DNA of 56,810 nucleotides. Origin: Verrucomicrobiaceae bacterium (GTDB taxonomy: Bacteria; Verrucomicrobiota; Verrucomicrobiia; Verrucomicrobiales; Verrucomicrobiaceae). The translations under genes and the position numbers were made by a program. Under the pieces are notes generated by a model. The model was not told where the DNA came from, searched no databases, and was given only the letters and a program-made list of their open reading frames with translations. Below, piece by piece: positions 4,060 to 30,279 of the stretch (position 1 is its first letter; every line of letters starts with the position of its first letter). The stretch is from assembly GCA_027487315.1 (NCBI GenBank), contig JAIYDW010000234.1, positions 1 to 56,810 of the forward strand. The letters are read 5' to 3'.

Positions 4060-5289
4060 ATGACTCCTACACTCCAACTCACCATTGAGGCCCAGGGCTA
4101 CTTCTCCAACTGCACCCACTGCGGCTTCTGCCTCGCCGTATGCCCGACTTACAAACTCACTGGCGATGAAAACAATTCACCGCGTGGTCGTTTGCGCCTT
4201 TGGAGTGAGGAAGCGGCGGGACGACTGCAGCAAGACAAGTGGACGGACTTTTACACCGCTGAATGTGTCGGTTGTCTCGCCTGCGAAACGGCCTGTCCCG
4301 CGACGGTGCCTTATGGTGAGATCTTCGAGCATGTTCGTCATGAACACGTCGCATCGCATCGCTTCAAACCAAAGCTCGCGCTCCGACTCGCAGCGGCGGC
4401 GGTCACGCATCCGATGTTGTTCAATCTCGCCATGCTGCCTGCACGGCTCTTGCGAAGCGCTGGGCTCAGCATGCATCGCTTTCTATTCCCTGGCCGTCCG
4501 TCGGCTCTAAAAAGCACCGCCGCGTATGCAGAGGAACTCATGCAGCGACATCGGCCCACCGGTCCGCGTGTGGCTTTTCTCACCGGTTGTTTGATGGAAG
4601 CCATGTTCCGTGAGATCAACTTCGCCACGGTGCGCGTGCTCATCGAGAACAATGTCCAAGTCATCATCCCTGACGGTCAAGGCTGCTGCGGCGCGTTCCA
4701 GGAGCACACTGGACTCGATGGTGTCGAAGCCCTTCGCGATCAGAACCGGCGAGCGTTTGGCCCGCTCGATGTCGAGGCCATCGTCAGCAACTCGTCCGGC
4801 TGCGGTTACGCTTTGGGCAAGACATTGCAGCCCAACAAACAAGTGCGCGATGTGCTCGGCTTCCTCGGCGAACTCGGCCCCGTGCGCCGCCCGCGTGCCC
4901 GCGATGATGGCACGCGACTCTATGTGGATCTGCCCTGCCACCTCGTGCATGGACAGAAGGCCGCAGGCATTCCCGCGAAGGTGCTCGATGCCACTGGCTA
5001 CCGTTGGGAACTTGCGCCCAAGGCCAAGGACTGCTGCGGCTCCGGTGGCGTTTACAACATCCAGAAGCCCGAGAACGCGAGTGCGATCCTCGCCGACAAA
5101 TCCGCCTTCCTCAACGAAGCCGAAGGCGCACCCGTCATCCTCGGCACCTCCAACCACGTCTGCATGATGCAATGGCACAGCGCCGGAGCCACCGGACTCG
5201 TCACTCGCCCCTACGAAGTGAAACACATCATCCAACTCCTCGATCCCGGAGAGAAGTTCAGCATCCCTTCAACCTCACCCCAGCCATGA
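4060..5289 (+). CDS. glcF: Iron-sulfur subunit of 2-hydroxy-acid oxidase, GlcF-like
   Basis: This 409-residue protein carries two N-terminal [4Fe-4S] ferredoxin motifs, CTHCGFCLAVCP and CVGCLACETACP, followed by two CCG (cysteine-rich) domains seen as GQGCCGAF and AKDCCGSGG. This is the GlcF/heterodisulfide-reductase-like electron-transfer subunit that takes electrons from the GlcD/GlcE flavins to the quinone pool. It completes the D-E-F set with the two upstream genes. An in-frame ATG at 4006 would add 18 residues encoded by a repeat and overlap glcE; 4060 (MTPTLQLT) gives the canonical N-terminus shortly before the first cluster. The stop overlaps the next ATG (ATGA at 5286). Confidence 0.88.
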   Translation: MTPTLQLTIEAQGYFSNCTHCGFCLAVCPTYKLTGDENNSPRGRLRLWSEEAAGRLQQDKWTDFYTAECVGCLACETACPATVPYGEIFEHVRHEHVASHRFKPKLALRLAAAAVTHPMLFNLAMLPARLLRSAGLSMHRFLFPGRPSALKSTAAYAEELMQRHRPTGPRVAFLTGCLMEAMFREINFATVRVLIENNVQVIIPDGQGCCGAFQEHTGLDGVEALRDQNRRAFGPLDVEAIVSNSSGCGYALGKTLQPNKQVRDVLGFLGELGPVRRPRARDDGTRLYVDLPCHLVHGQKAAGIPAKVLDATGYRWELAPKAKDCCGSGGVYNIQKPENASAILADKSAFLNEAEGAPVILGTSNHVCMMQWHSAGATGLVTRPYEVKHIIQLLDPGEKFSIPSTSPQP

Positions 5290-7961
5290 ACCACAACGAC
5301 CTCACCCTGAGTCACGACAAAAAGATGGGAGACAAAAAGATGAAGAACAGAAGCCCATTTTTCTGTCTCACATCTTTTTGTCTTTTCATCGTCACTCTCC
5401 ACGCCGCCGAGCCAATTGATCCAGCTCGCTTTGAAAAGGAAATCCTCGTGCCAGCAGCACGTGATGCGATCCAGATGGAAGTGCTGCCGGGTGGCGATGT
5501 CATCTTTGCCGAGTTCTGGGGCACCTTTAAACGTTGGGACGCGAAGTCAGGCGACGTGAGCATTCTGGGCAAGGTGCCGACTTATGCGAAGGGCGAGATC
5601 GGACTGCTCGGCATGGCGGTAGCTCGGGATTTTGAGCAGAGCGGGCATGTTTATGCCTTGTTCGCGCCGATGGCGAAACTCGGCACCGTGCGGGTGAGTC
5701 GCTTCACGGTGAAGGACGGCAGGATGGCGGCAGAATCGGAGTTGGAACTGCTTTCATGGCCTTATGATACCGAGCATGTCTTCCACATGGGCGGCGCGAT
5801 GTGGATGGATGGAAAAGGCGATCTCTACATCGGCAATGGCGACAACTGTCACTATGATCCGGGCTTGCCGCAGGACACACGGCCGGAGCGCAAAAACTGG
5901 GACGCCTTCCGCTCCGCCGCCAACTCACGCGACCTGCGCGGCAAGGTGCTGCGCATTCATCCGAAGCCGGAGGGTGGCTACTCCATTCCCGAGGGCAATC
6001 TCTTTGCCGATGGCAAGGACGGCAGGCCGGAGGTCTTCGCCATGGGCGTGCGCAATCCCTTTCGCCTCTCCGTGGATGACAAGACGGGCACGCTCTACTT
6101 CGCCGATGTCGGCCCGAACATCATGCCGGTGCTCGGCGTGAAGCCGGATGGCTACGAGGAACTCAATGCCACGCAGACCGCGGGGAACTTTGGCTGGCCG
6201 CTCTTTGTCGGGCCCAATGAAGCACTGCCACTCTATGATTTCGCCGCGAACAAGGAGGGCAAACGTTACGATCCGCAGTCGCCGGAGAATCTATCGCCGC
6301 GCAACACGGGCATCCAAAAACTGCCGCCGGCCAGGCCCGCGCTCATTTGGTATTCGAGCCTGCCTTCGAAGGACTTCCCCACGGTCGGCAGCGGTGGTCG
6401 CTCCATCATGGCCGGACCGGTGTATCGCTACGACGCGGCGAATCCTTCACCCATCAAGCTTCCCGAAGCGCTCGATGGCCGCCTCTTCATCTACGAGTGG
6501 ATGCGGAACTGGATTCAGACCTTGAAGCTCGGCACCCCTGGGCCGGAGATCGAGCCCTTTGTGCCGACCTGGAATCTGCGCCGCCCCATCGACATGAAGA
6601 TCGGTTCCGATGGTGCGCTCTACATGATCGAGTATGGCGACCAGTGGTGGGAGAACGACGACAGCCGCATCGTGCGCGTTGTGTATCGTCGCGGCAATCG
6701 TGCGCCAGTGGCCCGGATCAGCGCGAGTGAAACAGCGGGCAAACAACCGCTCGCGCTCACCTTTGATGCAGCTGCCTCGAGCGATCCCGATGGCGATGCG
6801 CTGAAGTTCATCTGGAGCATCGCGGGCAAGGAACAGACCGGCGACGGAGCAAATTTCGCGCACACCTTTGATCAACCCGGCAGCTATGAAGTCAGCGTGA
6901 CTACGCTCGATGCCAGCGGCGCGAAGAGCACCGCGAAGGAGATGATTCACGTCGGCAATGGTCGACCCTTCGTGCGCTTCGAGTCGCCAGCACACGGTTC
7001 GTTCTTCGATTGGGATTCCAAGATTCCTTACCAGGTGTCCGTCACCGAAACGGATGGCGACGCGGTGCAGACGAATCTCGCCACCGTGCAGGGCGAGTTT
7101 CGCGGTCGCCGTTTTGCCAGCGAGGGTGCCGATGATGTGCTCGATCCCGGACTCGCCATGATGCGCGCCAGCACCTGCTTCGCCTGCCACATGGCCGACA
7201 CCCCATCGGCTGGTCCGCCATACAAAACTGTCGCCATGAAATACAAGGACGACCCCGCCGCCGCCGAACGGCTCGCGCAGAAAGTCCTCAACGGTGGCAC
7301 TGGCGTGTGGGGGCAGCTTCCCATGCCGCCACATCCGCAGCACAGCATCGAGGAACTCCGCCGCATGGTCGCCTGGGTGCTCTCGCTCAAGGACGATCCC
7401 GCCAGCCCGCCGCAGTCCGGAGCCAGTGGCACCTTCACCGCGCCGAAGAAGCCCGAGAAAGGCACACGCGTGGACGAAGGCGTGCTGATCCTCACCGCCG
7501 CTTACACCGATGATGGCAAGCAAGCCACCCTGCCGCGCCTGCACGGTGAAGGCACCGTGGTGCTGCATTCCCGCCGCAAAAAAGCCGCGCTCTATGATGA
7601 GAACCACGGCATGGCCTACATCGAGCACGCCTACGGGGAGAAGGCCATCGTCGGCCACTTCAAGGACGGCACCCACATCCTCTGGCGCGACCTGAACCTC
7701 ACCGGCATCTCGCACATCACCGTCCGCGCCGGGTGCTTTGACACCAACGGTGGCACCCTCGAACTCCGCAGCGGCTCACCCACCGGCCCCGTGCTGGCCA
7801 GCGTCGAAGTGAAGCCCTCCGGTCAAGCCGACTCAGGCGAGTTTCTCTCCATCCACGCCACGCTCAGCAACGCCAACGGCCTCACCGACGTCTGCGTCGT
7901 CGCCCGCTGCGCGGACAAGAACACCGAACTCGGCCTGAACTGGATCGAGTTTCAACCGTGA
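5286..7961 (+). CDS. Exported PQQ-type sugar dehydrogenase fused to PKD, cytochrome c and CBM6-like domains
   Basis: This 891-residue exported protein starts with a signal peptide whose basic and hydrophobic parts are encoded by palindrome A (5316-5382), ending near TLHAAEP. Next comes a GSDH-like beta-propeller (about 45-470; MAVARDFEQSGHVYALF, GVRNPFRLSVD, ADVGPNI). A PKD domain follows (about 475-560; FDAAASSDPDGDALKF), then a single-heme cytochrome c with CFACH near residue 631 and MPPHP as a possible Met region. A CBM6-like beta-sandwich ends with NWIEFQP. The likely role is periplasmic oxidation of a sugar or polyol with direct electron transfer to the attached heme. The start overlaps glcF by ATGA; internal ATGs at 5328 and 5340 are alternatives giving a shorter n-region. 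Confidence 0.8.
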   Translation: MNHNDLTLSHDKKMGDKKMKNRSPFFCLTSFCLFIVTLHAAEPIDPARFEKEILVPAARDAIQMEVLPGGDVIFAEFWGTFKRWDAKSGDVSILGKVPTYAKGEIGLLGMAVARDFEQSGHVYALFAPMAKLGTVRVSRFTVKDGRMAAESELELLSWPYDTEHVFHMGGAMWMDGKGDLYIGNGDNCHYDPGLPQDTRPERKNWDAFRSAANSRDLRGKVLRIHPKPEGGYSIPEGNLFADGKDGRPEVFAMGVRNPFRLSVDDKTGTLYFADVGPNIMPVLGVKPDGYEELNATQTAGNFGWPLFVGPNEALPLYDFAANKEGKRYDPQSPENLSPRNTGIQKLPPARPALIWYSSLPSKDFPTVGSGGRSIMAGPVYRYDAANPSPIKLPEALDGRLFIYEWMRNWIQTLKLGTPGPEIEPFVPTWNLRRPIDMKIGSDGALYMIEYGDQWWENDDSRIVRVVYRRGNRAPVARISASETAGKQPLALTFDAAASSDPDGDALKFIWSIAGKEQTGDGANFAHTFDQPGSYEVSVTTLDASGAKSTAKEMIHVGNGRPFVRFESPAHGSFFDWDSKIPYQVSVTETDGDAVQTNLATVQGEFRGRRFASEGADDVLDPGLAMMRASTCFACHMADTPSAGPPYKTVAMKYKDDPAAAERLAQKVLNGGTGVWGQLPMPPHPQHSIEELRRMVAWVLSLKDDPASPPQSGASGTFTAPKKPEKGTRVDEGVLILTAAYTDDGKQATLPRLHGEGTVVLHSRRKKAALYDENHGMAYIEHAYGEKAIVGHFKDGTHILWRDLNLTGISHITVRAGCFDTNGGTLELRSGSPTGPVLASVEVKPSGQADSGEFLSIHATLSNANGLTDVCVVARCADKNTELGLNWIEFQP
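5316..5382. repeat. Palindromic element A (67 bp), translated as signal peptide
   Basis: The architecture is 12-3-12-13-12-3-12. GACAAAAAGATG occurs twice in tandem, followed after 13 bp by CATTTTTCTGTC and CATCTTTTTGTC. The outer 12-mers are perfect reverse complements and the inner pair matches 10 of 12. The element lies wholly inside the start of the PQQ-dehydrogenase gene, encoding a Lys-rich left arm (DKKMGDKKMKNR) and a hydrophobic right arm (SPFFCLTSFCL). Confidence 0.85.
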
Positions 7962-10141
7962 TGCGATTTGCCATGAAACACACACTCACCCATCAAGACG
8001 ACAAAAAGATCGCAGACAAAAATAGGCAGACTCGAACACCATTTTTCTGTCTCACATTTTTTTGTCTTATCACCTCACTGCACGCCGCCGAGCCGATCAC
8101 CAACTCCATCGGCATGAAGCTCATGCCCATTCAGCCCGGCACGTTCACGATGGGCCAGGACGGGCCGCCGATGGAGGATTACTTGCGGCAGAAGCGGTTT
8201 GGCGAGATGCACAAGGACATCGACCGGATCGACTTCGATGAGAAGCCCGCGCACCGGGTCACCATCACGCAGCCGTTTCACATCGGCGTCACCGAGGTCA
8301 CGGTGGCGCAGTATCGACAGTTCGATCCTGAGTTCAAAAAGAAGAATCCGAAGTCGAAGCCTGCGGATGATGATGCGGCAAGCGGTGTGACTTGGGACAA
8401 GGCTGTGGCGTTTTGCGAGTGGCTCACGAAGAAGGAAGGCAAGACCTATCGCCTGCCGACCGAGGCGGAGTGGGAGTATGCCTGCCGCGCTGGCACGACG
8501 ACGCTCTTTCATACCGGTGACGATTTGCCGGACGGGCATCAAAAGTGGTTCGGTGAGGACAACTTCCGCGGTGTGTATTTCCCCTCGGGACCGATGCCGC
8601 GTGAGTATGACTGGCGGAATGTCGGGAAGCCCGCAGCGAGCTTGAAGCAGGGGCAGATCATCGGCCTCGATCACCCGGTGGAGGAATCGAAGGCGGGTGG
8701 CACGGGTTCCTTACGCGTGGCGCAAAAAACGCCGAATGCCTGGGGCCTGCACGACATGCATGGCAACCTGGCGGAGTGGTGCAACGATTGGTATGGGCCG
8801 TATGAAAGCGGCTCGCAGACTGATCCGCTCGGTCGCGCCGATGGCGATTGCCGTGTGTTTCGCGGCGGCTTTCATTCCTCGATGAGCCGCTTTCTGCGCT
8901 CGGCGAATCGCGGCTCGTGGGTAACGAACTCCGCGAGCGAGCGCATCGGCTTCCGCGTCGTGCAGGGTGAGCTTCCGAAGGTAAAACTCATGCCCGTGGC
9001 CACGATGCCGCTGAACGCGCAGAACGTGAGTCAGAAGGTGCCGGACATCACGCCGCAGCCAGCGGACGCGCCTTTCTTTGAAGGGCCGAAGCCCTTCGTG
9101 CGCATTCCCGAGGGCGCTGTCGGCCCGGTGCTCATCAGTCAAAATCACAGCCCGTCCATCACCGAGTGCCCGAATGGCGATTTGCTCGCCGTTTGGTTCT
9201 CCACCCTCGGCGAGACCGATCTCACCACCGCAAACGCCGCCTCGCGATTGCGCTATGGCGCCAAGGAATGGGAACCCGCCTCGCCCTTCTGGGATGCGCA
9301 GGACGTGAACGACCATGCGCCCAAGGTCTGGTGGGACGGCGAGAAGACGATCTTCCACATCGTCGAAGGCCGACAGCATGGCGACATCGTGATCCGCCGC
9401 TCCACCGACAACGGCGTGACCTGGTCGAAGGCCGAAGTGATGCGGGCACACGGAGAGTCGGCCAGCAATCCCATCCGAACGAAGGAATGTGTCATCGCGA
9501 TCCCATTCGACTCCGCTGGCCTGTCCATCAGCCGTAACAACGGCAAGAGCTGGAGCGAGACCGGGCGGCATCGGCGCGGTTCGGAAGACATTCAGCCCGG
9601 AGGCAAGGGACCTTTCATGGCAGGCATCCACGGTCCTGTCGTCGAGCTGGCCGACGGACGGCTCATGGCCTTCGGTCGCATCAGCGCAGGGAACGCGGAC
9701 CAGGAGCGTTTCAAGTTCAAGATGCCCGTCAGCTACTCCGGCGACCTCGGTGAAACGTGGCAATGGGAAACGAGTGAGTTCCCCGTGGTGAGCAACACCC
9801 AGCGCCCCGCCATGCTGCGGCTCAAAGAAGGCCCCATCCTGCTCTGTTCCTTCACCGACGGGGCCCGCACGCCTTTCAAAGAGCGCAAAGGCCTCACCTT
9901 CAAATCCACCGCCGGCGACTACACTGGCACTGGCCTATACGCCGCCGTCAGCTACGACGAAGGCAAAACCTGGCCCGACCGCCGCCTCATCGCCCCCGAA
10001 GGCAAAACCACCGCCGACATCGGCGGCTACCTCGCCCTCACTCAAACCCGCGACGGATGCATCCAGCTCATCACCAGCAAGGACCACTATGCCTTCAACC
10101 TTGCGTGGGTCAAAGCCCTGCCGACTGCGCCGAAGAAGTGA
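7961..10141 (+). CDS. Exported FGE-like (SUMF1) domain fused to a sialidase-type propeller
   Basis: This 726-residue exported protein has a signal peptide encoded by palindrome B (end near LHAAEP). Residues ~50-340 form a formylglycine-generating-enzyme-like domain: NSIGMKLMPIQPGTFTMG, RLPTEAEWEYACRAGT, NAWGLHDMHGNLAEWC and GFRVV. Residues ~370-720 form a six-bladed sialidase-type propeller with Asp-box motifs STDNGVTW, SRNNGKSW, SGDLGETW and SYDEGKTW. FGE-like domains of this kind often do not generate formylglycine but act as binding or other catalytic modules. The propeller may cleave or bind sialic-acid-like or other acidic sugars. The start is TGATG-coupled to the upstream gene; 7973 (MKHT) is an alternative. 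Confidence 0.8.
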   Translation: MRFAMKHTLTHQDDKKIADKNRQTRTPFFCLTFFCLITSLHAAEPITNSIGMKLMPIQPGTFTMGQDGPPMEDYLRQKRFGEMHKDIDRIDFDEKPAHRVTITQPFHIGVTEVTVAQYRQFDPEFKKKNPKSKPADDDAASGVTWDKAVAFCEWLTKKEGKTYRLPTEAEWEYACRAGTTTLFHTGDDLPDGHQKWFGEDNFRGVYFPSGPMPREYDWRNVGKPAASLKQGQIIGLDHPVEESKAGGTGSLRVAQKTPNAWGLHDMHGNLAEWCNDWYGPYESGSQTDPLGRADGDCRVFRGGFHSSMSRFLRSANRGSWVTNSASERIGFRVVQGELPKVKLMPVATMPLNAQNVSQKVPDITPQPADAPFFEGPKPFVRIPEGAVGPVLISQNHSPSITECPNGDLLAVWFSTLGETDLTTANAASRLRYGAKEWEPASPFWDAQDVNDHAPKVWWDGEKTIFHIVEGRQHGDIVIRRSTDNGVTWSKAEVMRAHGESASNPIRTKECVIAIPFDSAGLSISRNNGKSWSETGRHRRGSEDIQPGGKGPFMAGIHGPVVELADGRLMAFGRISAGNADQERFKFKMPVSYSGDLGETWQWETSEFPVVSNTQRPAMLRLKEGPILLCSFTDGARTPFKERKGLTFKSTAGDYTGTGLYAAVSYDEGKTWPDRRLIAPEGKTTADIGGYLALTQTRDGCIQLITSKDHYAFNLAWVKALPTAPKK
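8000..8066. repeat. Palindromic element B (67 bp), translated as signal peptide
   Basis: This copy has the same 12-3-12-13-12-3-12 layout and exact length as element A: GACAAAAAGATC, GCA, GACAAAAATAGG, 13 bp, CATTTTTCTGTC, TCA, CATTTTTTTGTC. The left arm has diverged more than the right. It is translated in the same frame as A, giving DKKIADKN and then PFFCLTFFCL of the FGE-sialidase signal peptide. Confidence 0.82.
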
Positions 10142-13287: not shown

Positions 13288-15663
13288 ATGAAACACTGCG
13301 CCAATGACTCCTCTATGAACGACAAAAACATGTCCGGCAAAAACTTGAAGACCCGGAGCCCATTTTTCTGCCACGCATCTTTTTGTCGTCTCCTCCTCAC
13401 CGCCCTACTCCTCGCGCCGCTAGCCACACTTCACGCCGCTGATGATCTTCCTGAGCCGCCTGTGAGTTGGAAATACCCGCCGGAGATGCCGGGGGCGAGT
13501 GTGGAGGTTTATCGGGAGGTGAATGGTGTGAAGCTCAATGCCTACATCTTCACGCCGTCGGGTCACCGAGCCTCGGATCGATGCCCAGCGGTGTTGTTCT
13601 TCTTTGGCGGCGGATGGAAAGGTGGATCGCCGGGGCAGTTCCTGCCGCAGTCGCTTTACCTCGCGAAGCGCGGCATGATCGCCATCCCTTGCGACTACCG
13701 GGTGCTGAGCCGTCACGGAGTGATCCCGCAGGATTGCCTGCGCGATGCGAAGGCGGCGATGCGTTGGGCTCGCGCCAATGCCGCGCGTCTGGGTATCGAC
13801 CCTGACCGCATCGTAGCCGGAGGTGAATCCGCTGGTGGTCATCTCGCTGCTGCAGTGGCGTTGGTGCCGGGTTTCGAGGACGGAGATCACACCGAAGTCA
13901 GCTCGATGCCGAACGCTCTCGCGTTGTTCAATCCTGCCGTTGTGCTCGCGCCGGTGGAAGGTCATCCAGGGCTGCTTTCAGACGAAAAGAACGCCGACAT
14001 CCGCACCCGCTGCGATGGCCGTCCTCAGGAAATCTCACCTTATCATTTCGTCCGCGCTGGGCTGCCTCCGAGCATTTTCTTCCACGGCACGAAGGACGAG
14101 GCTGTGCCATTCCCCACGGTGGAACTCTTTGCCAAGGCCATGACCGCTGCGGGCAATCGCTTCGAACTCAAAGCCTACGAAGGCCAACCGCACGGCTTCT
14201 TCAATCCCGGGCGCGGCAAAGGCGAGCCGCGCGAGGAGGCCAGTCGCTGCTTTCACCGCACCATCCGCGAGCTGGACGCCTTCTTCGTATCACTGGGCTA
14301 TCTCAAGCCATCGGACAAGTTGCCAACACCAGCCGCCAAGAAGCTGTCCGATTTCCAGCCACTCGTCCGCACCGAGACCTGGACCGAGAAATGGCCGGAC
14401 GCTTCCGGCAAAGCCGAAACGCGCAACGTCACCGCCGAAGTGTGGACGCAAGCCATGCAAGCATCGCTGGACGCCCAAGGAACGCTGCACATTCCCGCGC
14501 GAGCGAAACCCTATTACCTGGACGGTCCGCTCGTCGTGAAATCCGGCCAAAAACTAAGCGCTGATCCGACCGCTGAGATTCGCCTCAAGCCCGGCAGTAA
14601 CACCTGCATGGTGCGCAACGAGCATGTCGCCACCATGAACACGAAGCCGGTGCCCGCCGATTTGCAGCTCGATTCGGACATCACCATCGAAGGCGGCATC
14701 TGGACGACACTGGCCGTGTCCCGAGCTGAATCCAACGGCAATTTGCGCGGCCACTCAGCGAAGGAGAATCCGGCTTTCGGTGCGCACGGCGTCATCCTGC
14801 TGCAAAACGTCCGCCGCGTCTCGGTGAAAAACGTCACCATTCGCCAGAGTCGGCCCTTCGGCGTGCATTTGGCGAACGCGCATGAGTTCACAATCGAGAA
14901 CGTCACGCTTCAAGAGCATTACCGCGACGGCGTGCATGTGAATGGCCCTTCAAGCGATGGCGTCATTCGTGGCGTGCGAGGCGATTCGCACGATGACAAC
15001 GTGGCGCTCAATGCCTAGGAATGGAAACACTACGCGCCCAGCTACGGTGCCATCGAGCGCATCGCCATCGAAGACGTCACCGGAGCGCCCGAAGGTCTGC
15101 CTGCGGCCAATTCCATCCGCATCCTGCCCGGCGTGAAGCGTTTTGACGATGGCACCACGCTCGATTGCCCCATCAGCGACATCACGCTGCGCCGCATCAT
15201 GGACATTCATGAGTTCAAGCTCTATGACCAGCCGAACCTCGAACTCGGTCGCGGTAACGACTTCAGCATCGGCGTCGGCACGCTCAAAAAGCTCCATTTT
15301 GAAGATCTCACCTTCAATCACCCCGGCAAGATTGAACTCCGCGCAAACACCGACGCCCTCTCGATCCACAACGTCCGCGTGAATCACCCCATCACTCCTG
15401 AATGGCACCTCCTCGCCATCGGCCCGAAGTCCATGACCTACCAGAGCGGAGGTCCGAGCAAGCCAGAGAAGTGGACTGAAATCTTCTCCCCCGACCTCGA
15501 CTGCATTGCGCGCAACGTCAGCATCACCGGCGTCCGCACCAAGGACTCGCAGACAGACTTGCCCATCGAGCAAGTCGTCAAAGTCATCGAGCAAAAACCC
15601 AACCCCGACTACCCCAATACCACACCGAAAGGCGGCACGGGGAAAGGGATTTGGATTCGATGA
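13288..15663 (+). pseudogene. Esterase (alpha/beta hydrolase) plus right-handed beta-helix protein, interrupted by amber codon
   Basis: Two frames lie in the same phase, 13288-15018 and 15019-15663, separated only by TAG at 15016-15018. Together they give about 791 codons. The signal peptide is partly encoded by palindrome C. Residues ~60-340 are an alpha/beta-hydrolase esterase: FFFGGGW oxyanion loop, nucleophile GGESAGG, acid in HGTKDEAVP, His in GQPHGFF. Residues ~370-790 are a parallel beta-helix of the pectate-lyase/GH28 type with repeats such as VSVKNVTIRQSRPFGVHLAN. The TAG falls in DDNVALNA-stop-EWKHY, where related beta-helix proteins usually have Trp, so a TGG to TAG change is likely. 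The esterase half may still be made; the helix would be truncated. Sequencing error and readthrough are alternatives. Confidence 0.75.
13321..13387. repeat. Palindromic element C (67 bp), translated as signal peptide
   Basis: This copy has the same 12-3-12-13-12-3-12 layout and length as A and B: GACAAAAACATG, TCC, GGCAAAAACTTG, 13 bp, CATTTTTCTGCC, ACG, CATCTTTTTGTC. It is translated in the same frame as A and B, giving DKNMSGKNLKTRSPFFCHASFC of the esterase signal sequence in two arms (DKNMSGKN, then PFFCHASFC). Confidence 0.8.
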
Positions 15664-22038: not shown

Positions 22039-24636
22039 ATGAAGCCCATCTTTCTGTCATCCATCTTTTTGTCGTTAATCTGCGTCACCAACCACGCAGC
22101 AGACACCACCTTCTTCGACTCCAAAGTCCTGCCTATCCTTCAGCAGCGTTGCTTTGAGTGCCACTCGCACGGAACGAAGATCAAAGGCGGCCTCGCTTTG
22201 GATTCACGCTCTGGCTGGGCGGAGGGTGGAGACAATGGTCCCGCCATCAAGCCCGGCCAATTAGAGGAAAGTCTGGTCATCAAAGCGGTCCGCTATGTGG
22301 ACGCGGAGTTCGAAATGCCTCCAAAGGCCAAGCTTCCTGCCAGCGAGATCGCCATTCTCGAAGAATGGGTGAAGCTCGGTGCGCATGACCCACGAACCGC
22401 TGGAGCCGGAAAGCAGAAGAAAGGCATCGACCTCGCCGAAGGCCGGAAGTTTTGGGCCTTCCAACCCGTGAGCAATCCCAAGGCACCGCTCGTTAAGCAT
22501 GCCGCATGGCCACTTGATCCGTTGGATCATTTCATTCTCAAACCGCTCGAAGCCAAGGGTATCAAGCCCGTGAGTGATGCAGATCGCTACACTTGGCTTC
22601 GTCGCGTGAGCCTTGATCTCACGGGACTGCCGCCGACAGCGAAGGAGATTGAATCCTTTTCAAAAGACTCGTCATCCGATGCGTATGCGAATGCTGTGGC
22701 TCGTTTGTTAAACTCCAAAGCCTACGGCGAGCGCTGGGCGCGGCATTGGCTCGATCTCACCGGTTACGCCGATATGATGGGCACTTCGAACGCCGTATTC
22801 GCCGAGCATGCGTGGCGGTATCGCGATTACCTCATCAACGCCTTCAACGCCGACAAACCCTTTGATGAGTTCGTGCGCGAGCAGATCGCGGGAGATTTGA
22901 TGTCCGCAAAGTCCACCGAAGATCGCGCCGAGAACATCACCGCCACCGGCTTCCTTATGGTCGGCGACATCGAGATCGTGAACCCGGACAAGGCGAAGAT
23001 GGAGACCGATCACATCGATTCCCAGATGATCAAAATCGGCCAGACTTTCATGGGCATGACGCTGGGCTGCGTGCGTTGCCACGATCACAAGTTCGACCCC
23101 ATCGGAGTCGATGACTACTATGGTATCGCCGGCATGCTGCGCAGCTCACCCTCCTCGCACAAAATGCCGGACATGGGCGTCTGGAGCACGCTCAACAGCA
23201 CCGTCCTGCCCGAAACCGCCGCGCAACTCGCCGCGCGAAAGAAACTCGAAGCCGAGAACGAACAGCGCATCGTTGGCTTCAAAGAAGAGCAAAAGAAGCT
23301 CACTGACGAGAAAGCCACTGTCGCCAAACAACTGGCCGCCCTAGGCAAGACTGAAGCACCAGCACCACAAATTGCCGCCACCGACAACGCTGAGCGAAAT
23401 GTTCCAAAATCCGCAGCTGCCTCAGAAAAGAAATCTGCGGGCCTCCCTGAATCTGTGGGGGCAAACTCCCCCGACAAAGACGCCCTCACCAAGCGCCGCG
23501 ACGAACTCGATGCACAGCTCAAGAAGCTCGCCGAGACCATCAAACACGCCGAATTCTTCAAGGACAAGACTCCAAGAGCCTTCGCGATGAGCGATGGCCC
23601 GACGCCTGCCGACATGCCCGTTTATGTGCGTGGCAATCCGTATGCACCAAGCACTGTCGTGCCGCGTGGAACTCTTCGCGTGGCCTCGTGGGATAAGTTC
23701 CCCGCCATCCCAGCAGGCCAGAGTGGACGTCTGCAATTCGCGGACTGGCTTGCCGACAAACGAAACCCGCTCACCGCTCGCGTGACGGTGAACCGCATCT
23801 GGCAAAAGCTCTTCGGCACCGGCATCGTGCCCAGCGTGGACTACTTCGGCACTCGTGGCGATGTGCCCACGAACCCGGAGTTGCTCGATCATCTTGCCAC
23901 CCGCTTCATGCAGGGTGGTTGGTCACAGAAAGCGTTTCTTCGCTCGCTCGTTCTTAGCCGTGCGTATCGCCTGAGCAGCTCCAACGACGCCCTAGCGATG
24001 AAGCTCGACCCCGAGAACAAACTCTTCTGGCGCATGAATCGCCAGCGCCTCGATGCCGAGGCTCTGCGCGATTCCATGCTCGCCATCAGCGGCGAACTCA
24101 CTCGCGATAGCGGCGGCCCCGCGTTGGTGCTGGAGAATCCCGAGAACTGCGGTGCATTGGCTCTGAAAGGTGTCAATCCGCCCAACTACAAGCACAGCAA
24201 GCCGCGCCCGACGCAGGAGTTTGAGCGCACTCTCTATCTCCCCGTGCTCAGAGGTGCCACCGCTGGGCCAGATCGCTTGCGTGCCTTCTTTGATTTCGTG
24301 GACCCCGCTGGCACGGCTGGTCAGCGCAACCAGACCGTGGTGCCCACACAGTCGCTCTTCTTGCTCAGCAACGACCTTCTCCGCAAACGCGCCACCAAGC
24401 TCGCCGACCATTTCATTGCCGCCGAACCGAACGAAATAGCACGACTCGAAGCCCTCTGGCTCCGCGTGCTCAATCGTCCCATCACCAGCACCGAGCGCGA
24501 AGAGGCCACTGCCTTCCTCGGCAACGTCGAGCCGCTCATCAAAACCGTCAAAGGCCGCCCCGCACTCGACTCCATCAAGTGGCGTGAACTCTGCCACAGC
24601 CTCCTCGCCTCGAATGAGTTCGTGTTTCGACTTTGA
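22039..24636 (+). CDS. Exported cytochrome c protein with DUF1549 and DUF1553 (PSD1 family)
   Basis: This 865-residue exported protein has a signal peptide (1-20, ending TNHAAD) that includes the right half of a palindrome of the A-C type. A planctomycete-type cytochrome c (PSC1-like) follows, with CFECH at residues 38-42 and EMPPKAKLP as a likely distal-ligand segment. Next are DUF1549 (about 150-360; WPLDPLDHFIL, YGERWARHWLDL, GCVRCHDHKFDPI with a second CxxCH) and a charged helical linker (about 395-510). DUF1553 completes it (about 560-855; NPLTARVTVNRIWQ, RLDAEALRDSML). These proteins are typically encoded next to DUF1501 genes, as here. Their substrate is unknown, but two CxxCH motifs indicate redox function in the periplasm. 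The start is 3 bp after the regulator stop. Confidence 0.88.
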   Translation: MKPIFLSSIFLSLICVTNHAADTTFFDSKVLPILQQRCFECHSHGTKIKGGLALDSRSGWAEGGDNGPAIKPGQLEESLVIKAVRYVDAEFEMPPKAKLPASEIAILEEWVKLGAHDPRTAGAGKQKKGIDLAEGRKFWAFQPVSNPKAPLVKHAAWPLDPLDHFILKPLEAKGIKPVSDADRYTWLRRVSLDLTGLPPTAKEIESFSKDSSSDAYANAVARLLNSKAYGERWARHWLDLTGYADMMGTSNAVFAEHAWRYRDYLINAFNADKPFDEFVREQIAGDLMSAKSTEDRAENITATGFLMVGDIEIVNPDKAKMETDHIDSQMIKIGQTFMGMTLGCVRCHDHKFDPIGVDDYYGIAGMLRSSPSSHKMPDMGVWSTLNSTVLPETAAQLAARKKLEAENEQRIVGFKEEQKKLTDEKATVAKQLAALGKTEAPAPQIAATDNAERNVPKSAAASEKKSAGLPESVGANSPDKDALTKRRDELDAQLKKLAETIKHAEFFKDKTPRAFAMSDGPTPADMPVYVRGNPYAPSTVVPRGTLRVASWDKFPAIPAGQSGRLQFADWLADKRNPLTARVTVNRIWQKLFGTGIVPSVDYFGTRGDVPTNPELLDHLATRFMQGGWSQKAFLRSLVLSRAYRLSSSNDALAMKLDPENKLFWRMNRQRLDAEALRDSMLAISGELTRDSGGPALVLENPENCGALALKGVNPPNYKHSKPRPTQEFERTLYLPVLRGATAGPDRLRAFFDFVDPAGTAGQRNQTVVPTQSLFLLSNDLLRKRATKLADHFIAAEPNEIARLEALWLRVLNRPITSTEREEATAFLGNVEPLIKTVKGRPALDSIKWRELCHSLLASNEFVFRL
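22040..22073. repeat. Right half of a palindromic element (D), translated
   Basis: CATCTTTCTGTC, ATC and CATCTTTTTGTC preceded by GAAGCC reproduce the right arm of elements A-C with one or two changes. No left arm is recognisable in the upstream regulator gene. It is translated in a different frame from A-C, giving PIFLSSIFLS, which is still hydrophobic and forms the core of the signal peptide. Confidence 0.7.
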
Positions 24637-24638
24637 TC

Positions 24639-24664
24639 CATTCTCCTGCCCCCATTCTTCTGCC
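24639..24664. repeat. Half palindromic element F upstream of the DUF1501 gene
   Basis: CATTCTCCTGCC, CC, CATTCTTCTGCC is the right arm of the G-richer subtype seen complete at 26110-26165. It begins 3 bp after the upstream stop codon. Here it is not translated because the DUF1501 start is at 24700. No left arm is visible. Confidence 0.65.
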
Positions 24665-29608: not shown

Positions 29609-29707
29609 GATGCCGAAGGCATCCAAGCTATTAGCCGGTGGTTGAGGAGCGGAGCGACGACACCACCGGATCACCGCGCGGAAGAACTCCGCATCCCGGA
29701 GGGATGC
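29609..29707. repeat. Left REP array of the RAYT unit
   Basis: Three hairpins lie in order: GATGCCGAAGGCATC (29609-29623), CCGGTGGTTGAG with matching CACCACCGG (29635-29669), and GCATCCCGGAGGGATGC (29691-29707). The first two, with AGCTATTAGC between them, recur in inverted order on the right side of the transposase gene (30225-30279). This is the expected palindrome set of a REP-associated tyrosine transposase. Confidence 0.8.
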
Positions 29708-30187: not shown

Positions 30188-30279
30188 GCATCCCTGCGGG
30201 ATGCTCGGTGTTTCCCCATCTTACCCGGTGGTGTCGCTTCGCTCAACCACCGGCTAATAGCTGGGATGCCTTCGGCATC
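30188..30279. repeat. Right REP array of the RAYT unit
   Basis: Hairpins GCATCCCTGCGGGATGC (30188-30204), CCGGTGGTGTCGC with AACCACCGG (30225-30253) and GATGCCTTCGGCATC (30265-30279) mirror the left array. The outer ~55 bp are inverted repeats of 29609-29669 with few differences. The whole unit, from GATGCC to GGCATC, spans 29609-30279. Confidence 0.8.

Follow-up and report, generated by a model that had tools for sequence, protein, structure and literature searches.

A dispersed palindrome has replaced the signal peptides (SPs) of exported genes, and we consider it probable that this palindrome is the non-autonomous (MITE/REP-like) form of a GxxExxY mobile unit. The window, by which we mean the whole 56,810-nucleotide stretch of DNA analysed, holds three 67-bp copies (A, B and C) and one half-copy (D) in the following genes.

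5286-7961, + strand: gene A, exported GSDH / PKD / CBM6 / cytochrome c protein
5316-5382, + strand: element A, 67-bp palindrome (A-arm 5316-5342, loop 5343-5355, T-arm 5356-5382) within the gene A SP, which reads ...DKKMGDKKMKNRSPFFCLTSFCL followed by FIVTLHAAEP and starts at ATG 5286 or at the in-element ATG 5340
7973-10141, + strand: gene B, FGE-sulfatase/SUMF-like plus BNR protein
8000-8066, + strand: element B, 67-bp palindrome in the gene B SP, MKHTLTHQDDKKIADKNRQTRTPFFCLTFFCL followed by ITSLHAAEP
13288-15018, + strand: gene C, exported BD-FAE/esterase plus beta-helix protein
13321-13387, + strand: element C, 67-bp palindrome in the gene C SP, MKHCANDSSMNDKNMSGKNLKTRSPFFCHASFCR followed by LLLTALLLAPLATLHAAD
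22039-24636, + strand: gene D, PSCyt1 / PSCyt2 (DUF1549) / PSD1 (DUF1553) protein
22047-22073, + strand: half-copy D, T-arm only, SP hydrophobic core of gene D, MKPIFLSSIFLSLICVTNHAADTT

The palindrome and its distribution

An earlier note on this DNA had described elements A, B and C as exactly 67 bp each, with a 12-3-12-13-12-3-12 layout, and as lying inside the 5′ ends of three unrelated exported-protein genes. Their coordinates and lengths were confirmed, and the three proteins do differ in domain content (GSDH/PKD/CBM6/cytochrome c in A, FGE-sulfatase/BNR in B, BD-FAE/beta-helix in C). All three elements are in frame and fall within the first ~30 codons of their genes. The family to which A to D belong consists of two tandem ~12-nt units, a loop, and then the inverted equivalent; the 67-bp copies start with GACA and finish with TGTC, their A- and T-arms are 78-89% complementary, and they are short elements with terminal inverted repeats and no transposase gene. 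Mismatches to the search patterns in A, B and C, respectively, numbered 0, 3 and 3-4 in the A-rich arm and 0, 0 and 0-1 in the T-rich arm, element B thus combining an intact T-arm with a decayed A-arm. When up to 2 mismatches are allowed, the window contains 16 occurrences of the 12-mer GACAAAAAGATG, compared with 3.5 expected, and 0 of 100 shuffles gave as many as 16. Half-copy D, which the earlier note had missed, is in a frame other than that of A, B and C and reads MKP(IFLSSIFL)SLICVTNHAADTT.

The genome-wide search that the earlier note had proposed, counting copies at SP starts and elsewhere, agreed with the placement seen in the window. The paired arm gave 9 matches in this genome and the reversed control pattern none; a fifth clear copy, on contig C118, provides a sulfatase with its SP, so that 5 of 5 clear copies (A, B, C, D and C118) are at SP starts. 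Divergent arms on C135 and on C21 stand outside this count. We then extended the blind pattern search to 387 Verrucomicrobiales genomes, mostly draft MAGs, and examined nearly all of the places listed. The arm was present in 31 of the 387 genomes and in 7 of the 50 genera of the order, and the reversed-pattern control was almost nil. Among 109 distinct copies, classified by reading frame and codon usage with a home-made gene caller and inferred start sites, 85 formed an in-frame fusion with the start of a gene and nearly all the others were intergenic (L170 is possibly gene-internal, and L335 is probably a chance match). Because orthologous copies are not independent, we also report counts by family, and the 85 N-terminal fusions represent 28 mature-protein families.

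More widely, the paired arm was found in Verrucomicrobia, Planctomycetes, KSB1, Binatota and further groups, in at least 117 stretches. The loop, typically 13 bp in Verrucomicrobiales, ranges from 0 to 187 bp in other phyla, and the exact 67-bp layout is typical only of the Verrucomicrobiales copies. Many copies outside Verrucomicrobiales are intergenic or unclear, and the N-terminal excess is therefore strongest in that order. Tandem arrays with several units of the 15-nt GACAGAAAGATG+3, a period that preserves the frame, were seen at L095, L129 and L063.

Coding capacity and replacement of signal peptides

The T-arm encodes hydrophobic peptides and is mostly free of stop codons in three frames (HFSVSHLFV, IFLSHIFL, FFCLTSFC), all of which occur at SPs, and the net charge of the A-arm is positive on average in each of its three frames. 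Thus, the proposal that one palindrome encodes a signal sequence, a basic n-region followed by a hydrophobic core, held for many unrelated exported genes, with the exception that the coding is not fixed in frame: A, B and C do all read GAC AAA AAG in frame, with FFCL or FFCH in the T-arm, but copies at SPs as a whole read FFCLTSFC, IFLSSIFL or HFFVCHLFV. By a crude n/h/c test, which is partly circular since the T-arm is hydrophobic, 18 of 28 families were SP-like compared with 22% of 283 background genes; the same test, which is no SignalP-class predictor, passed A and B and failed C and D. The T-arm was better kept than the A-arm in 62 of the 71 copies with unequal arms (62:9) and in 23 of 27 families (23:4). 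Such preservation of the arm that supplies the h-region is what selection on the peptide, as opposed to the hairpin, would be expected to produce. From these sequence features we infer that the element-encoded N-termini are working SPs, and the enrichment at SPs would reflect tolerance of K-rich and F-rich peptides at that position and not targeting.

The element can also supply the start of translation. A-units terminate in ATG, and many first spacers place GGAG 8 nt 5′ of the second ATG. At L156, L160, L366 and L372 no start codon exists apart from one within the element; in the C118 sulfatase of this genome, as in L160, L366 and L372, the sole ATG, GTG or TTG in the open frame is the element's second ATG, and the element contains both candidate starts of L371 and of the S9 peptidase L357. 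The element of the sulfatase family serves the upstream gene as well: it supplies that gene's final residues (..TTKRLETKR* in this genome), and the end of that gene overlaps the start of the sulfatase in an ATGA. A single palindrome at L156, L160, L366, L371 and L372 encodes the C-terminal tail and stop of the upstream gene, the ATGA overlap, and the start and SP of the sulfatase.

Orthologues without the element carry ordinary SPs. A gene A orthologue in G030 (94% identical) has the native SP MKINTMIAFAALLTLSASNAAEP. Relatives of gene B in G035 (MKHNLTLLTVLLLSPLTAIHAAEPITNSIG) and G030 (MKPTLTLLTALLLASLHAAEPVTNSIG) have the ordinary SPs MKHNLTLLTVLLLSPLTAIHAAEP and MKPTLTLLTALLLASLHAAEP, respectively. 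For gene C, an empty site is found in G019 (MKHFLLTALLLAPLAAVYAAD), where an ordinary SP is present (MKHFLLTALLLAPLAAVYA versus MKHCANDSSMNDKN..FFCHASFCRLLLTALLLAPLATLHA). Four element-less homologues in the sulfatase family, and nearly all of those in the S9 family, have native-looking SPs that are wholly lost in the element version. In L177, the gene A orthologue of G028, a divergent GGCAAAAAGAT-type palindrome occupies the SP position at which others have the GACAAAAAGATG type.

Because the element-less orthologues already have ordinary SPs, what the element brought about was the replacement of SPs and not export itself. The idea that the SPs originate from the repeats is thus contradicted in 5 of 5 families (A, B, C, sulfatase and S9 peptidase), by the very observation, SPs predating the repeats in orthologues, that the earlier note had named as evidence against it. 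Its suggestion of a mobile route to protein export gives way, in the same 5 of 5 families tested, to SP replacement in genes whose products were already exported. We conclude from these comparisons that the repeat replaced part or all of a pre-existing SP.

Homology around the C-type SP extends well beyond the palindrome. Window element C, L154 (1033-1099) and L323 (9533-9559) are ~90% identical over a stretch that begins at least 210 nt upstream and runs to ~82 nt past the beginning of the T-arm, where the cleavage site lies; their mature proteins are unrelated, with no identity beyond that site. That the identity stops at the cleavage site indicates recombination at the boundary between SP and mature protein.

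GxxExxY nuclease genes and their flanking repeats

Several copies of the element flank genes of one family, GxxExxY, identified by matches above both curated cut-offs (TIGR04256, 46-51 bits with a cut-off of 35; PF13366 PDDEXK_3, 48.7 with a cut-off of 22). The earlier note had not seen this nuclease element, the probable source of the palindrome. In most of 20 matches the arms abut or overlap the GxxExxY gene. At L389, L163 and L169 the unit is an A-arm, the GxxExxY gene and a T-arm, and at L382 and L383 a whole palindrome lies on each side of the gene. We scored loci for repeats common to both flanks, calling those that scored above every one of 400 shuffles. Flank-shared repeats were found in the order at 59 of 66 loci of the long form (~260 aa) and at 16 of 20 loci of the short form, and in other phyla at 13 of 17 GxxExxY genes. 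In comparison, 5 of 161 other genes scored, of which 4 proved to be GxxExxY genes themselves, leaving ~1 in 157 controls. The flanking repeat differs with the GxxExxY subfamily (GACAAAAAGATG, GGTAAAAGATT, GGCAGTAGAATG, CTTTGCG, CTCTGTG and others), and flank similarity tracks protein similarity (Mantel r 0.54; 0 of 2000 permutations), a correlation to which orthologous sites may contribute. Short-form genes of several phyla (L452-L471, L472-L501) are flanked by dispersed repeats of the CTTTGCG, CTCTGTG or CACAAAG type.

By hand count (E < 1e-20), long-form genes are present in 21 of the 31 genomes with the element compared with ~27 of 356 others. The long-form gene was not found in 10 of the 31, among them this genome (best match E 3e-5); given its apparent absence, the copies here are probably relics. 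Residues D75, E85-x-K87 and Q99-x3-Y103 are invariant among 23 GxxExxY sequences, a pattern of D, E-x-K and Q-x3-Y that we take to be that of RecB/Cas4-like PD-(D/E)XK nucleases. A sequence search of the PDB returned only a sub-threshold match (E 0.77), to 4ic1, a Cas4-type nuclease. A structure model of the long-form nuclease reached a mean pLDDT of just 36, and no relative of this nuclease was found in viral contigs.

A T-arm of another repeat family lies directly behind gene D in the window:

24640-24664, + strand: T-arm of the CATTCTCCTGCC-CCC-ATTCTTCTGCC type, at the junction of gene D (PSD1) and DUF1501

The same PSD1/DUF1501 junction holds a complete GxxExxY unit in L389, L391, L392, L394 and L396 and is clean in L373, and it looks like an insertion hot spot. 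Comparison of L373 with L389, the one clean empty site, revealed that the GxxExxY unit replaced ~25 bp and no target-site duplication; at this one site, such a replacement would fit cut-and-repair better than classical transposition. No transposition of the element was seen.

Matching repeats on both GxxExxY flanks, together with the A-arm/gene/T-arm units, make the 67-bp palindrome look like a miniature form of the GxxExxY unit. In the scheme that we propose, the autonomous unit would be an A-arm, a GxxExxY PD-(D/E)XK nuclease gene and a T-arm; the nuclease would cut or mobilise the arm ends, and the 67-bp copies would be its miniature derivatives. The A-D family is found mostly at gene junctions, in frame with the 5′ end of exported-protein genes. 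An SP needs merely a basic n-region, a hydrophobic core and a cleavage site, and the element would for this reason be tolerated in SP codons, where insertions would survive and then be kept as SPs. Recombination at the SP/mature boundary would subsequently set different mature proteins behind one element-derived SP.

Alternatives, precedents and wider reading

One alternative explanation would make the palindromes REP/BIME elements of the ordinary sort, with a RAYT (Y1 HUH) transposase as their mover and the GxxExxY genes as passengers. RAYTs are common (54 of 57 relatives), one lies in the window, and REPs, too, are solo palindromes at gene junctions. However, the arm was absent from all 30 best RAYT loci, and the window RAYT (PF01797; 29816-30151, − strand) has its own, unrelated inverted repeat (29609-29646 / 30242-30279; GATGCCGAAGGCATCC..). 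The palindromes also have no terminal GTAG/CGTC tag, while GxxExxY genes have matching repeats on both flanks at most loci. We consider this explanation highly unlikely and, given RAYT loci without the arm and a window RAYT with other repeats, rejected RAYT as the mobiliser. It is less far-fetched, if still unlikely, that GxxExxY nucleases, instead of serving a mobile element, maintain or copy the repeats for the benefit of the host, in regulation, repair or defence. A RecB/Cas4-like QxxxY motif, the failure to find a target-site duplication at GxxExxY units, and the inheritance of solo copies with their genes over long times are all compatible with a host function, but the arm is patchily distributed among genomes, different repeat families occupy one junction in different genomes, and whole GxxExxY gene units are present or absent between orthologous junctions.

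Two further alternatives concern the N-terminal placement. If the copies lay in 5′ untranslated DNA, with the real start downstream, the placement would be an artefact, and a few copies do precede an intact native start and an SP or Tat signal (L342, L373, DUF1501 genes and GxxExxY genes). In A-D and in the sulfatase and S9 families, however, the stretch from the element to the conserved cleavage region contains no start codon, which means that the element itself must be translated there; the T-arm is selectively retained, and translation in the C118 sulfatase family begins within the element. An artefact of this kind is accordingly very improbable. The strong form of the earlier proposal, in which the element is an active SP-delivery cassette that turns cytosolic proteins into exported ones, could draw on the SD-like GGAG, the ATG and the basic and hydrophobic stretches that the element carries, and on the complete SP replacement in the sulfatase and S9 families. 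We nevertheless find it hard to credit, since export already existed in each of the five families for which element-less orthologues are available and since homology at the shuffled C-type SP reaches upstream by a minimum of 210-265 nt and stops at the cleavage site, which weakens the case for a compact cassette as the mover.

Palindromes inside genes have precedents. Rickettsia palindromic elements (RPE) are short palindromic repeats in frame in many unrelated protein genes (PMC10969869, a review), and they are the nearest published precedent for in-frame palindromes; the element studied here resembles them, as compared by description and in a different taxon, in its in-frame insertion in unrelated coding genes (28 families). 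RPEs, in contrast, are ~150 bp, lie within Rickettsia ORFs and are not reported in that review as SPs, whereas the element here is at the gene 5′ end, replaces SPs and is tied to a nuclease gene. The nearest precedent for a palindrome with a single-gene partner is REP/RAYT (PMC3733652), in which dispersed palindromes at gene junctions (REP/BIME) accompany an autonomous single-gene partner with repeats on both flanks (PMC2817692, PMC3733652), and REPs at ORF N-termini have been reported (PMC3733652). The present system differs in its lack of the GTAG/CGTC tag, in a PD-(D/E)XK GxxExxY and not a Y1 HUH partner, and in that no association with RAYT was found. Like MITEs (e.g. Correia elements), for which gene fusions are known (PMC10969869), it is a short inverted-repeat element whose ends match a gene-carrying unit (of the L389/L163/L169 type); unlike MITEs, it has tandem 12-mer arms, no target-site duplication was found, and the internal gene is not of a known transposase type.

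The published open-access papers that we searched contained no reports on the GACAAAAAGATG-arm repeat or on SPs from mobile palindromes. In these papers GxxExxY received no more than passing mention, and no link to dispersed repeats was found. Accordingly, what appears to be new, as not found in the open literature, is the use of palindromes as SPs and the link between GxxExxY and repeats; in-frame palindromes and a palindrome with a single-gene partner were known already.

A wider reading, for and against which we find the case evenly balanced, is that GxxExxY nucleases define a widespread, undescribed class of mobile elements whose ends vary by subfamily and whose miniature copies are many of the dispersed repeats of Planctomycetota, Verrucomicrobiota, KSB1 and others, and that the ends of one such family, by virtue of their composition, serve as frame-independent SPs with built-in starts, repeatedly rewriting the 5′ ends of exported genes. 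Should mobility be shown, the GxxExxY element would count as a new class. A large nuclease family, named but of unknown function, is here tied to repeats dispersed in the genomes of several phyla, and the source of these repeats thereby becomes testable. The turnover of SPs is rapid, and one seldom gets to observe where they come from; in this case one can read the DNA that took over, the empty sites and the SPs that were displaced, which provides a direct natural experiment on the minimal requirements of a signal peptide.
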